From positions 1 through 64,000 of the forward strand of contig JAGBAO010000014.1 in NCBI GenBank assembly GCA_017938925.1: 64,000 bases of DNA, given 5' to 3'. Origin of the DNA: Bacteroidales bacterium (GTDB taxonomy: Bacteria > Bacteroidota > Bacteroidia > Bacteroidales > UBA932). This document shows, in pieces, positions 14,782 to 57,112 of the stretch. The notes under the pieces are model-generated. The model was not told the origin of the DNA and made no database searches. It worked only from the letters and a program-made list of their open reading frames with translations. How positions within the stretch are numbered: the stretch's first letter is position 1; each line of letters opens with the position of its first letter. Position numbers and translations under genes: made by a program.

Positions 14782-14985
14782 CATCCGGAAACATGGCTCG
14801 CTTTCCGGACGAGAATCGATTTTCGGGATCGTCATCCGGGAAAACGCTGGAAATCACGGATGGGAGCGAGTTTTCAGAGCCGTCATCCGGGCAAACGCCG
14901 GAAATCACGGACGGGAGCGAGAGATTTGCAAAGCTATCCGGAAAAACGCGGGGAATCACGGACGGCGAAAGGCTGCGTAATACAT
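14782..14985. repeat. 51-bp-period palindrome array, 4 units (upstream of RAYT)
   Basis: Units begin at 14782, 14833, 14884 and 14935 with [CT]ATCCGG, exactly 51 bases apart. The second and third have the full unit, with CATCCGGG then ATCACGGA[TC]GGGAG. A fifth degenerate trace follows near 14995. The units are the same family as the arrays at 15339, 16440, 30535, 37155 and 56518. This one fills the space between susC and the small hypothetical gene. Confidence 0.8.
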
Positions 14986-15007: not shown

Positions 15008-15337
15008 TTGCCGCAAATATATCCCGGATATCATTTGAAAACCCTATCTTTGGCAGAGATTGAGAACTATCTGGTTCGCCATCCACGATCAAATGGCATA
15101 ACATCGCAAACCATAACTAAGATCATGGAGGCTCTATATCTTAACGTCAAGACTGTTCCGGCAATAGATCCCGAACACCATCTTCCACACACTGCCTACA
15201 CCGTCTTCAGCACAGACGGCGACGGACTTCGATTTGCATCCGGCTGGACTTTGCGTGATGCTATACATTTATTCGCCAGATTATATGGATATGATCCTGC
15301 CAGACTCAGGCTTATCCGCCCTTTCCGACCACAATAG
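15008..15337 (+). CDS. Small hypothetical protein beside the RAYT gene
   Basis: Open frame ending TAG at 15335-15337. The translated stretch (LAEIENYLVRHPRSNG ... ASGWTLRDAIHLFARLYGYD ... RLRLIRPF) has protein-like composition, and I do not recognise it. The start is uncertain: no ATG opens the frame before 15125, so TTG at 15008 or 15050, or a 70-aa version from ATG 15125, are possible. It lies between two palindrome arrays and reads toward the RAYT gene. It could be an accessory of the transposase unit, a decayed gene, or chance. There is no signal peptide, membrane segment or cysteine pattern. Confidence 0.35.
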   Translation: MPQIYPGYHLKTLSLAEIENYLVRHPRSNGITSQTITKIMEALYLNVKTVPAIDPEHHLPHTAYTVFSTDGDGLRFASGWTLRDAIHLFARLYGYDPARLRLIRPFRPQ

Positions 15338-15338
15338 G

Positions 15339-15474
15339 CATCCGGAGACTTACCTTGTTTCCCGGACGGGACCTCCAATTTCGTTCTCCCGTCCGGGGAA
15401 TCAGGTATATATCCGGACAACAGGCGCAATTTCACCATTCTATCCGGGAATATAGTGGATTTCCCGGACGGGAT
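15339..15474. repeat. 51-bp-period palindrome array, 3 units (directly upstream of RAYT)
   Basis: Units start at 15339, 15390 and 15441, exactly 51 apart, each an imperfect palindrome such as TATCCGGGAA...TTTCCCGGACG. Strong secondary structure also joins neighbouring units (TCCCGGACGGGA with TCCCGTCCGGG). The array ends 17 bases before the RAYT start, so it would form part of its mRNA leader. Confidence 0.8.
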
Positions 15475-15490
15475 TCAATGATACAAATAC

Positions 15491-16426
15491 ATGAAAACCG
15501 AATTACGTACACTGACTTTCTCAGAGAAGGAGAGTATCTGTGAAAGAGAATTTGAGACGTCTGGGCCTTTCTGGCACCTGTACACTGACGGCAGAAAGAT
15601 GCAGGACATGTTCCTGACAGATGAAATCTTTGAACTGGCTGAAACCTTGCTGGCAGTCTCATGCTGCAGACATCCGCAAGTCAAGGTTGTGACATTCGAA
15701 CTTATGACCAACCACCTGCACATAATAGCAAGCGGACAGCGCACAGAATGCCTCAATCTGTTCAATGACTATAAAACAAGACTGCAAAGAGTTCTGAAGA
15801 AAGCGGGGGTTATCATAAAATGGGATAGTTTTGAGGCTGATATTATTCCAATCGAAACTCTAAAAGCGCTCAGGAATGAAATCATATACGTAAACCGGAA
15901 CGCTTTTGTAGCCAACCCGAGCCATACCCCTTCCAACTATCCATGGGGAGGAGGTTATGCATACTTCTGCCCTTTGATTAAACATGTAGACGCCATTGAG
16001 TTCGAGAAGTTGACTTATGACAAGAAGAGGCAGGTGGCCCATTGCAGAGATATAAGCGGACTGGGCAAACTGCGTCTGAAGGATAAGCTGGGAGTTCTGG
16101 TCACATCATTCTGCGACATATCATTGGGAGAACGCATGTTTCCAGACGCACGAAGCTATTTCAACTCACTTACTCGCAATTCAGAGGCATTCAGTCTGAT
16201 TGCAGAAAGACTTAAAGATTCCGTATTCCTGACTGATGAAGAGCTCTTCCATGCAGCTGTCAATTACGCCGAGAGCAAATTCGGAACAAAATCAGTGATC
16301 ATGCTTGGTCCGGATCAGAAAATCATGCTCGCTAAAGAGTTGCATTTCAGATATAGAGCGACCAACCAGCAGATCCGGAGGATAACCCGTCTGGATATCC
16401 AGATTCTTAATGAGATGTTTCCATAG
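15491..16426 (+). CDS. REP-associated tyrosine transposase (RAYT, Y1/HUH family)
   Basis: 311 aa. The N-terminal half is a Y1_Tnp domain. It contains the HUH metal-binding motif as NHLHIIASG (H75, H77 after the strand VVTFELMT), followed by the helix FNDYKTRLQRVLKKAG with Y94 as candidate nucleophile. The C-terminal part is helical with 'RYRATNQQIRRITRLD', a likely DNA-binding end. RAYTs nick single-stranded extragenic palindromes and are thought to spread them without being classic insertion sequences. That fits this gene, which is embedded in palindrome arrays (three units just upstream, eight just downstream). The gene appears intact. It splits the starch locus between susC pair 1 and the GH13 gene at 16897, and runs opposite to them. 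Confidence 0.85.
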   Translation: MKTELRTLTFSEKESICEREFETSGPFWHLYTDGRKMQDMFLTDEIFELAETLLAVSCCRHPQVKVVTFELMTNHLHIIASGQRTECLNLFNDYKTRLQRVLKKAGVIIKWDSFEADIIPIETLKALRNEIIYVNRNAFVANPSHTPSNYPWGGGYAYFCPLIKHVDAIEFEKLTYDKKRQVAHCRDISGLGKLRLKDKLGVLVTSFCDISLGERMFPDARSYFNSLTRNSEAFSLIAERLKDSVFLTDEELFHAAVNYAESKFGTKSVIMLGPDQKIMLAKELHFRYRATNQQIRRITRLDIQILNEMFP

Positions 16427-16439
16427 CTAATCGCTAAAC

Positions 16440-16847
16440 TATCCGGAAAAACACAGGGGATCCCGGACGGGAGAGAGATTTCAACGCCGTCATCCGGGGA
16501 AACGCGGGGAATCACGGACGGGAGCGAGAGATTTGCAAAGTCATCCGGGGAAACACAGGGAATCACGGATGGGAGCGAGAGATTTGCAAAGCCATCCGGG
16601 GAAACACAGGGAATCACGGATGGGAGAAACTTTTCAGTGCCGCCATCCGGGAAAACGCAGGGAATCACGGACGGGAGCGAGAGATTTGCAAAGCTATCCG
16701 GGGAAACACAGGGAATCACGGATGAGAGAGACTTTTCAGTGCCGCCATCCGGGAAAATGCGGGGAATCACGGATGGGAGAAACTTTTCAGTGCCGCCATC
16801 CGGGGAAAGGCGGGGAATCACGGATGGGACAAAAAAGGCAATCCCCT
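16440..16847. repeat. 51-bp tandem palindrome array, 8 units (downstream of RAYT)
   Basis: Units begin at 16440, 16491, 16542, 16593, 16644, 16695, 16746 and 16797, a strict 51-bp pitch. The unit reads C[AC]TCCGGGGAAACRC, then AGGGAATCACGGATGGGAG, then one of two linkers (AGATTTGCAAAG or TTTTCAGTGCCG type). It starts 13 bases after the RAYT stop and runs into the terminator of the GH13 gene. Because 51 is divisible by three, frames stay open through it on both strands. Confidence 0.9.
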
Positions 16848-30534: not shown

Positions 30535-30666
30535 TATCCGGGAAACCGCATGTTTTCCCGGACGAAAGCCGTATTTCGAAGAAGCCATCCGGGATTTACT
30601 GCATTTCCCCGGATGACAGTCGTTTTTTCGAGGAGTCATCCGGGATTTACAGTATATTCCCGGACG
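30535..30666. repeat. 51-bp-period palindrome array, 3 units
   Basis: Units at 30535, 30586 and 30637 (51-base pitch). Each is a ~30-base palindrome of the form CATCCGGGATTT...CCCCGGATG or TATCCGGGAAA...TTTCCCGGACG. It fills the convergent gap between lytTR and the GH77 gene. It is the same family as the arrays around the RAYT gene, but palindromes are better preserved here than in the RAYT-flanking tandem arrays. Confidence 0.85.
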
Positions 30667-37154: not shown

Positions 37155-37235
37155 CGTCCGGGATTTACCCCGTTTCTCCGGATAACACCGTCTTTTTGGT
37201 GCCTTCGTCCTGGATTTACCCCGATTTTCCGGACA
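37155..37235. repeat. 51-bp-period palindrome array, 2 units
   Basis: Units at 37155 and 37206 (51 apart), reading CGTCCGGGATTTACCCC...CTCCGGAT and a diverged second copy. It is the same family as 30535 and 56518. It would be transcribed in the rsgA leader. Confidence 0.75.
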
Positions 37236-43563: not shown

Positions 43564-43676
43564 ACCGTCAGGCACTAAATCAGCTAAAACTCTGCCTGTC
43601 GGTATAAAAAACAAGGCAATTTGCCCGTTTTCGGGGATCGTCAGGCAGAGTTTCGGGCAAAAAACTGCCTGTCGGT
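43564..43676. repeat. Paired ACCGACAGGC-family hairpins, locus 1
   Basis: First hairpin 43564-43603: ACCGTCAGGCA and TGCCTGTCGGT. Second hairpin 43638-43676: TCGTCAGGCAG and CTGCCTGTCGGT. The gap 43381-43563 holds A/G-rich sequence without a gene. The paired layout recurs at 46109, 52391 and 59008. Confidence 0.8.
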
Positions 43677-55904: not shown

Positions 55905-56360
55905 ATGAAGAAGATACTATTATATATATGTGCAGCGGCGCTCTGCCTGCTGACATCTTGCGAAAAGGAACTGACCATGGCTGAGAAACTGGTCGGAGAC
56001 TGGCATTGCACATCGACATCCACAGACGCAGAGATATATGTGACATTCAGGGCAGAAAACACCTTCGTCCTCTACCAGCAGATCGGTGAGGGCGCATTCA
56101 GAGTATATAACGGCACATATGTACTTTCTGCCGGCACAGGCGAGGGTGCGGAATATGTCCTGAGCGGGGAATATAACGACGGGACTCCTTGGGGCACCAC
56201 TTATGAATTCAGAAGCGAGGACAAGAACGTCTTCACACTCACGGCGGCTGGAATTACTGAGACATACACCAGAGTGGACGGTGGCATTCCGGAAAAGGTC
56301 ACTGCCAGTTGCGAGACTGTGGTCAAATCTGAGGATGGATACTGGAAGCCTTTCCTTTAA
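55905..56360 (+). CDS. Small lipocalin-like lipoprotein
   Basis: 151 aa. Lipobox LLTSC (Cys19), then 'AEKLVGDWHCTSTSTDAEIY', 'FRAENTFVLYQQ' and 'YVLSGEYNDGTPWGTTYEF'. This series of eight or so beta strands starts with the G-x-W motif of lipocalin-like domains. Such small lipoproteins are common in Bacteroidota and have no known role. It is the last gene of the GH53-protease operon. Its stop overlaps the stop of convergent queH by four bases. Confidence 0.75.
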   Translation: MKKILLYICAAALCLLTSCEKELTMAEKLVGDWHCTSTSTDAEIYVTFRAENTFVLYQQIGEGAFRVYNGTYVLSAGTGEGAEYVLSGEYNDGTPWGTTYEFRSEDKNVFTLTAAGITETYTRVDGGIPEKVTASCETVVKSEDGYWKPFL

Positions 56361-57112
56361 AGACCGGGCTTGGCGTTCATGCTGAACTCGCAACCGCAAT
56401 AGAGCTGGTTGTAGAAACCGTATTCCTTTATGATCTGAAGGCGGCGCTCCTGGAGCCCGCCTTTTTTCCAGTTATGAGGCCACCATGTCACGCCTGGGCT
56501 TTCACTTGGAGAGTTCCTATCCGGGGATTCGGCTGTTTTCCCGGATAGCGCGAGCAAATCTGATGGTTCGTCCGGGAAATTCCCCATTTTTCCGGATGGC
56601 GGCAGATATTTTTCCAAATTGTCCGGGAAATCCCCTATTTCTCCGGATGACAGCATGCTATTTATCTGCTCACAGGCCCACTGACCGGCTTCGTTGATCT
56701 GATCGAGGGACTTCCATCGCGATGAAGCGAGAGTCGAGGTTATGACCCTGATGCCATGGGCGGCAGCATATTCCGCTGTGCGCAGGAGCCTGAGCTTGAA
56801 GCATTTGAGGCAGCGTCCTCCCCTTTCGGGCTCGTTTTCAAGGCCCTTGACGCATTCAAGCCAGTTCTCGTGGTCGTAGTCCGCATCTATGATCTCCAGA
56901 CCGAGGGACTCGGCATAGCGGGTGCACTCGTTCTTGCGGATCTCATATTCCTCGTGAGGGTAGATATTTGGATTGCAGTAATATATGACCGGAGTGACCC
57001 CGTGTTTCATCAGACACTCGATGATGGCACTCGAACATGGGGCACAGCAGGTGTGAAGGAGAACCTTCGTCTCCCCAAGCGGCACCTGAAATATTTCTTT
57101 TTGTTTTGCCAT
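56357..57112 (-). CDS. queH: Epoxyqueuosine reductase QueH with in-frame palindrome-array insertion
   Basis: 251 aa, about 55 residues longer than expected. The core is complete: TCCAPCSSAIIECL (C22, C23, C26), 'YYCNPNIYPHEEYEIRKNE', CLKC (C101, C104), 'STLASSRWKSLDQINEAG' and YCGCEF (C239, C241), the cysteines that hold the iron-sulfur and metal sites. QueH makes queuosine from epoxyqueuosine in tRNA. Residues about 150-206 (SSGEIGDFPD..., PPSGKMGNFPDEP, LSGKTAESPDRN) have no counterpart in the family as I know it. They are encoded by three 51-bp palindrome units (56518-56649). The frame is intact across the insertion and rejoins at GVTWWPHNWKKGGL. The insertion lies in a surface loop before the conserved tryptophan segment; activity is likely but unproven. 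Confidence 0.88.
   Translation of the reverse strand: MAKQKEIFQVPLGETKVLLHTCCAPCSSAIIECLMKHGVTPVIYYCNPNIYPHEEYEIRKNECTRYAESLGLEIIDADYDHENWLECVKGLENEPERGGRCLKCFKLRLLRTAEYAAAHGIRVITSTLASSRWKSLDQINEAGQWACEQINSMLSSGEIGDFPDNLEKYLPPSGKMGNFPDEPSDLLALSGKTAESPDRNSPSESPGVTWWPHNWKKGGLQERRLQIIKEYGFYNQLYCGCEFSMNAKPGL
56518..56649. repeat. 51-bp-period palindrome array inside queH, 3 units
   Basis: Units start at 56518, 56569 and 56620 with a 51-base pitch: TATCCGGGGATT...TTTCCCGGATA, CGTCCGGGAAATTCC...TTCCGGATG and TGTCCGGGAAATCCCC...CTCCGGATG. It is the same family as the arrays around the RAYT gene, but located within a coding sequence. Confidence 0.9.

Follow-up and report, generated by a model that had tools for sequence, protein, structure and literature searches.

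In-frame REP-like palindromes at a recurrent insertion hotspot in queH of Bacteroidales

A queH gene in a Bacteroidales contig carries an array of palindromic repeats within its reading frame. This raises the question of how repeat DNA came to be translated inside an enzyme, and whether it now does anything there. The window, meaning the whole 64,000-nucleotide stretch that we analysed, comes from a 34-contig draft genome with 91.9% completeness. By sequence comparison, the product of the open reading frame (ORF) at 56357-57112 is QueH: it matches profile PF02677 with 199.4 bits against a cut-off of 23.5, and PDB entry 7lc5 is a QueH match both by sequence and by fold (TM 0.88 on the target). 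Epoxyqueuosine reductase activity is the predicted function.

56357..57112, minus strand: queH, epoxyqueuosine reductase, 251 aa, with in-frame insert (PF02677, 199.4 bits; 7lc5)
56620..56649, minus strand: palindrome unit 1 in coding order, reads SGEIGDFPD (model R2 without queH copies, E 3.8e-8)
56569..56598, minus strand: palindrome unit 2, reads SGKMGNFPD (model R2 without queH copies, E 1.3e-8)
56518..56547, minus strand: palindrome unit 3 in coding order, reads SGKTAESPD (model R2 without queH copies, E 3.7e-7)

The array consists of three 30-bp palindromes and two 21-bp spacers, which together make 132 bp or 44 codons. Its period is exactly 51 bp, and the encoded peptides recur every 17 residues in the coding direction. 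An earlier sequence-only reading had placed an in-frame palindrome array here, and covariance model R2, built from 19 copies outside queH and run over 130 kb (E-values are rough), finds all three palindromes within 56518-56649. Because this model holds no queH copies, the likeness of the queH units to a dispersed family is not circular. That reading also spoke of a 51-bp unit; the period is indeed 51 bp, but the unit itself is a 30-bp palindrome set on a 51-bp lattice. The QueH linker has 75 residues in the window versus 20, so that 55 are added, much as proposed; 44 come from the array and the rest from its edges.

The enzyme around the insert appears intact. Nine cysteines (C22, C23, C26, C46, C63, C101, C104, C239, and C241) are invariant in 54 of 54 aligned QueHs, the alignment comprising 54 of the 81 rows (window and named); as judged by conservation, the catalytic cysteines are retained, as had been stated. 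Over 122 codons, the QueH core differs from that of its sister L074 at 7, 5, and 51 sites by codon position (49 synonymous and 6 non-synonymous changes), and on this comparison it is strongly constrained and under purifying selection. The AlphaFold model gives the insert a mean pLDDT of 39-59 in residues 161-200, although these low values may partly reflect the thin alignment there. The insert is thus predicted to be a disordered, exposed loop, which is what a structure prediction had been suggested to look for.

The palindromes of queH belong to a family dispersed through the genome. The window has 12 occurrences of the strict pattern YRTCCGG-N16-CCGGAYR, against 0 expected from 100 shuffles. 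A 30-bp model, scored on 150 of 1690 first-look candidates, matches 16 places in the window's genome with about 46 units (best E per place ≤0.0012; two weaker places were excluded), and 14 of these places are arrays of 2-8 units. Two of the 16 places lie within confirmed genes, queH and metH, the others being judged by ORF lists alone. The family is therefore a short, dispersed palindrome (30 bp, within the REP range of 20-40 bp) found mostly between genes, and its description as an otherwise extragenic repeat largely holds. The GTAG tag of classical REPs is present in none of 23 palindromes; CGTC stands at one end in 15 of the 23, yet as part of the arm YRTC.

30535..30666, minus strand: array of 3 palindromes, flanked by a LytTR response-regulator gene and a GH77 gene
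37155..37235, minus strand: 2 palindromes, probably intergenic (ORF list only)

Steps within arrays of this genome are mostly 51 bp. The proposal that the frame survives any number of units is right for such arrays, but not for the four steps elsewhere in the genome that measure 52 bp. Outside queH and metH, 7 of 12 and 9 of 12 arrays are open in the two SG..PD frames. Since other arrays are so often open in the SG..PD frame, the open frame in queH needs no special selection, and the openness of these outside arrays does not prove selection either. Four arrays were not counted as lying in genes: in L156 the surrounding ORF overlaps a tsf-like gene (named by eye) out of frame, and those of L157, L158, and L163 fall within ORFs (223, 120, and 111 aa) without a Pfam match. 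Two further dispersed palindrome families occur in the window, one at 43634, 46178, 46239, 52460, and 59077 and the other at 302, 376, 41706, and 41780, between ORFs according to the ORF lists; the genome thus hosts several palindrome families.

Arrays of the same 30-bp family bracket a gene for a RAYT-like protein (P0002), 40 kb from queH in the window. The sequence-only reading had reported neither this gene nor the recurrence of insertions at the queH site described below.

14782..14964, plus strand: array of 4 palindromes, upstream of the RAYT-like gene
15125..15337, plus strand: small ORF of 70 aa lying within the upstream set of arrays (its counterpart at this position in genome G026 is 54% identical)
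15339..15470, no strand assigned: array of 3 palindromes, immediately upstream of the RAYT-like gene
15491..16426, plus strand: RAYT-like HUH/Tyr transposase gene (P0002), 311 aa (H75-x-H77, Y133, N137)
16440..16826, plus strand: array of 8 palindromes, beginning 14 bp past the RAYT-like gene

Residues H75, H77, Y133, and N137 are the same in every one of the 25 aligned rows, which comprise P0002 and 24 of 28 homologs. P0002 scores 15.6 bits against Y1_Tnp (cut-off 23 bits) and 12.5 bits against the NCBIfam model REP_Tyr_transpos (cut-off 80 bits), under the cut-off in both cases. Y1_Tnp is matched by 3 of the 25 members of A3, the alignment of P0002 and its relatives, at E 0.01. The A3 profile also finds chain 2xm3, named “transposase”, at E 0.007, which we take to be an IS200/IS605-type enzyme. 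The single-sequence structure model of P0002 was useless (pLDDT 36). We therefore call P0002 RAYT-like, a putative remote member lying below the model cut-offs.

The association of gene and palindromes recurs in a second species. The closest homolog of P0002, 59% identical and found in G026, is also bracketed by palindromes spaced at 51 bp (L257, positions 887/938/989 and 2325/2376/2427); each is a weak match (E 0.003-0.07) but plain in the sequence. Their arms have changed together, with TCCGT...ACGGA replacing TCCGG...CCGGA. Around P0002 itself, the best strands of the bracketing arrays give no clean inversion, and near-symmetric palindromes score on both strands. A search of other fetched RAYT loci at E 1e-3 gave no match to the 70-aa ORF, whose product is a possible partner protein of the RAYT-like protein. 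From this arrangement we infer a link between the palindrome family and P0002, whose product would be what moves the palindromes.

At E 1e-5, 32 of 37 genomes in the genus have a homolog of P0002, compared with 0 of 24 genomes from other genera. Genome G021 has 15 matches to the palindrome family but only a 38% identical RAYT homolog, and no CCGG palindromes were found at E 0.1 at its four fetched RAYT loci. G058, from another genus, has one strong family match without a P0002 homolog at E 1e-5. Family palindromes are likewise absent from the five fetched loci of other Y1_Tnp matches in the window's own genome. The matches of G021 without RAYT-side palindromes and the strong match in G058 speak against a simple one-to-one link between family and RAYT, and the RAYT loci of G021 somewhat lower our confidence in a RAYT-linked explanation.

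QueH is a recurrent target of insertion among relatives of the window's bacterium. We compared 110 QueH rows, of which 30 come from the 37 genomes with a match and 80 are the best among 194 relatives (four rows repeat a contig, leaving 106 otherwise). The stretch that spans residues 140-214 in the window's protein has 19-20 residues in 63 of the 110 rows, 21-39 in 26, and at least 40 in 21. Alignment with related QueHs, proposed earlier as a check, thus finds 19-20 residues in 63 rows where the window has 75, and a 55-residue segment conserved in distant Bacteroidales, which would have spoken against insertion, is not seen in the 110 rows. A conserved QueH domain at this place was rejected on the same count of 63 short rows. 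In 47 of 110 rows, an insertion of at least 4 residues follows residue 152; insertions of this size appear at seven other internal places, in one row each, and both termini vary too (7 and 33 rows). On this alignment, the site after residue 152 is a recurrent insertion hotspot.

Sister species carry different inserts at this site. In a QueH tree of 104 rows, whose bootstrap had not settled, the window's QueH pairs with that of L074 with support of 100/94. The two inserts share no match better than E 1.4; that of L074 repeats about every 17 residues (by eye) and has no second copy in its own genome at E 1e-3. The window's palindrome family is also present, at this site and in this frame, in L048 and L019/L067; these lie outside the window/L074 pair, so that separate arrival, or loss and regain, is likely for the family on this phylogeny, and a single old arrival less likely. 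Some shorter inserts resemble remnants of longer ones (L064 of L051, L056, and L054) and point to insert loss. Two rows of the tree call for comment on their labels. The QueH of G029, labelled as the window's genus, is identical in the tree to that of L088 and groups with Candidatus Cryptobacteroides, which makes Cryptobacteroides the probable genus of the window's bacterium; the L100 contig, titled Clostridium sp., has a QueH that groups with Phocaeicola and is probably mislabelled.

Some inserts match elements elsewhere. The queH insert of G032 matches an element next to a RAYT gene in that genome at 97.6% identity over 82 bp, and the metH insert of G017 is 87% identical over 90 bp, on the opposite strand, to that same RAYT-side element. 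Among 14 inserts of other genomes compared with their own RAYT flanks (some RAYTs having been fetched), G032 gave the one real match; the match of the G035 insert is queH itself. At the DNA level, the window's queH array is most similar to an array in G007 (E 8e-11); the RAYT flank of its own genome matches less well, at E 1.6e-9. At least 5 of 33 genomes in the genus have a RAYT-like gene at a distance of 0.3-4.2 kb from queH (G021:C23, G026:C25, G024:C57, G035:C62, and G036:C7), an illustrative count from a hand-made list of RAYT positions; this nearness may help explain the hotspot.

Insertion is not confined to queH. In metH of the window's genome, an in-frame array lies exactly between the homocysteine (7-330) and pterin (405-643) domains, and the metH of G021 carries the same palindrome family. 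Across 30 MetH loci, out of 38 genomes with a match, the homocysteine-pterin stretch is 52-59 residues long in 23, and seven have 61-104. Another family, with an element of about 135 bp that was first found in the queH inserts of L051/L053, L054, and L057, is dispersed in 8 of 8 genomes searched (44 matches); these genomes were chosen for a queH or nearby stretch resembling that insert. Twenty-nine loci, or 28 distinct copies, of the 44 matches were examined, and 11 of the 28 copies are in frame within genes that Pfam recognises, namely queH (five), M20 peptidase genes (two, in two genomes), and genes for a HutI-like amidohydrolase, MurB, AroE, and a U32 peptidase (one each). The sequence-only reading had called queH an essential-type enzyme, a label that goes too far for queuosine synthesis, although inserts of this kind also occur in metH and murB of the lineage.

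Comparison with solved structures locates these inserts with differing clarity. AroE residues 101-158 span only residues 104-112 of 1wxd, although the second part of the match is weak alone. MurB breaks twice against its solved counterpart (69-142 against 71-86, and 269-316 against 211-215), and the same two breaks are seen in most MurBs of relatives. The HutI-like enzyme matches a solved enzyme only from past the repeat. The break in the M20 peptidase is weak: its first segment is not significant alone against 3ct9, and 3pfo aligns through with a difference of 11 residues. In the U32 peptidase gene (L332), the repeat is at the N terminus and the start codon may lie after it. The in-gene copies of the 135-bp family, in six kinds of gene, all have one orientation; for copies lying elsewhere than in recognised genes, 22 of 45 sense and 15 of 45 antisense frames are open. 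Other gaps were seen in MurB. The protein encoded at L340:539-1885, minus strand, has a second insert of about 45 residues after residue 262 that looks like another repeat family, and MurBs of G021 and G024 have gaps of about 28 and 22 residues, respectively, near query position 376.

The 135-bp element (L313-L342) is, from its alignment, a candidate new structured mobile element with several hairpins. Paired bases occupy 97.8% of 776 cells, and 17 of 38 pairs show changes on both sides. On four of five covariation measures, 0 of 500 shuffles score as high, and slid controls are 28-50% paired; the fifth, further pair types, is matched by 140 of 500 shuffles. The structure was derived from the same alignment, with one helix added by eye. 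A search of Rfam with six loci returned no family at the gathering score.

These hairpins invite a different account of the queH insert, in which in-gene hairpins are kept for a job of their own, such as ribosome pausing or mRNA protection at a domain or loop border, and the peptide is a by-product of a domesticated control element. Stems of the 135-bp family stay paired in 245 of 248 cells of seven gene copies, where 10 pairs have changes on both sides, and in 114 of 114 cells of three queH copies, where four of the five varying pairs change on both sides and one changes to G-U. The peptide, by comparison, shows no sign of constraint in the one pair of inserts compared between species, L053 and L054 (differences of 6, 6, and 9 by codon position versus 16, 5, and 59 in the core); this lends no support to the earlier word “domesticated” as applied to it. 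Furthermore, a set of 18 queH inserts, some of them non-independent, folds more stably than the coding sequence upstream (mean z -1.72 versus 0.04; one-sided Wilcoxon p 0.002), and the single orientation and the position of the metH insert between two domains fit as well. Nevertheless, pairing is equally high outside recognised genes (552 of 566 cells), a level that new insertions, or conversion by copies in the dispersed pool, suffice to explain. As RNA, the array in the window folds with no exceptional stability (z -0.56 and -0.87; as DNA, z -1.96), so that the argument from pairing rests on relatives; several other queH inserts are no more stable. The tree of 135-bp copies, which is weak and leaves vertical descent versus separate arrival unsettled, does not join the queH copies in one clade, and the remnant-like inserts argue against a need for the element. 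We consider this account improbable.

Accounts that dispense with a mobile element fare worse. Local slippage or tandem duplication within queH, with the likeness to dispersed palindromes due to coincidence or reverse flow, could explain growth by a 51-bp step, and the roughly 17-residue repeat and single-copy state of the L074 insert count in its favour. However, the genome has the same palindrome at 15 other places, including metH and both sides of the RAYT-like gene, and the strict pattern is absent from 100 shuffles. Tandem slippage alone was rejected because of the dispersed copies, and we hold the broader version to be very unlikely. That queH is a decaying gene or an assembly artefact, with a meaningless insert, could be raised from the draft state of the genome, but hardly deserves credence: the frame is open, the cysteines are kept, the inserts at this site come from many assemblies, and those of L051 and L053 are identical in two separately named assemblies. 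A pseudogene was rejected on the constraint of the core against L074.

The reading that we favour, and regard as probable, is that the queH insert consists of three copies of a REP-like palindrome linked to a RAYT-like transposase, and that copies landing in tolerant loops with an open frame survive. The family occupies its 16 places mostly as arrays spaced at 51 or 52 bp and brackets the RAYT-like gene, whose closest homolog in a second species is bracketed by palindromes at 51-bp spacing with arms that have changed together. The transposase would act on single-stranded DNA hairpins, copying or moving units, and arrays would grow and shrink by the unit. Comparison among relatives shows that the linker after residue 152 tolerates additions, and that inserts of different families have been gained, lost, and swapped there repeatedly. 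Insertion would not be aimed at queH: the survivors would be the copies in tolerant loops with an open frame, and the 51-bp lattice, together with the often open SGxxxxxPD frame, would raise the odds of survival. The enzyme is predicted to stay active with the insert as a disordered, exposed loop.

A bolder extension of this favoured reading is conceivable, though we doubt it. The elements of this lineage may be compatible with ORFs genome-wide through their near-fixed 51-bp step and open frame, hairpins in enzyme genes may be kept paired by continuing selection or conversion, and the queH site may be a rotating cassette that swaps unrelated families between sister species.

At the queH site the repeats differ between related bacteria, and repeat DNA seems to become protein there time after time. 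The best-known coding palindromes are those of Rickettsia, and in our view reduced genomes and weak selection are natural suspects there. Here, a gut Bacteroidales lineage of many species offers a mapped hotspot, sister species with differing inserts, and a candidate transposase in the same window, which make both the passage from selfish DNA to protein and the host's need for it directly testable. The lineage comprises relatives of a group with good genetic tools.

A search of open-licence papers by title and abstract found none on in-frame palindromes in Bacteroidales or in queH. In-frame palindromes are nonetheless already known as a kind. According to a review (PMC10969869), the RPEs of Rickettsia lie in frame inside genes (Ogata 2000, 2002), and, like the elements described here, they are palindromic repeats in unrelated genes that add a peptide to an enzyme presumed to work. 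The host genes here are likewise unrelated: queH and metH in the window's genome, and queH, murB, aroE, and genes for a HutI-like enzyme and an M20 peptidase in relatives. Compared by description with RPEs as that review presents them, our elements differ in lineage, in their build (short palindromes at 51-bp spacing and, among relatives, a multi-hairpin element of 135 bp), and in the presence of RAYT-like genes.

Intragenic REPs are a second precedent. One study (PMC3733652) describes GTAG/CGTC REPs wholly inside ORFs, with clusters that encode 43-82 residues, hosts that include tRNA pseudouridine synthases, and different REPs near the same recB site in two Xanthomonas. Set against that account, the palindromes here have no GTAG tag, occur in Bacteroidales, and have hosts including queH, metH, murB, and aroE; moreover, one hotspot is compared over many species, with swaps between unrelated families. 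As in the REP/RAYT systems outlined in PMC2817692, an HUH/Tyr gene is bracketed by dispersed palindromes that co-diverge with it, whereas P0002 is a remote member, the step is nearly fixed at 51 bp, and about 46 units compare with the more than 100 copies usual by that outline. Another comparable group is TnpAREP subclass 2.6, or Bertels group 5, which as described in PMC6006769 shares the NH[LIV]H motif, occurrence in Bacteroidetes, and atypical secondary structures; the tyrosine motif listed there is YIH[QN]NP, while P0002 has YVNRNA, again a comparison by description. Thus, as far as these searches go, what is new is the lineage, the rotating hotspot, and the breadth of host genes.
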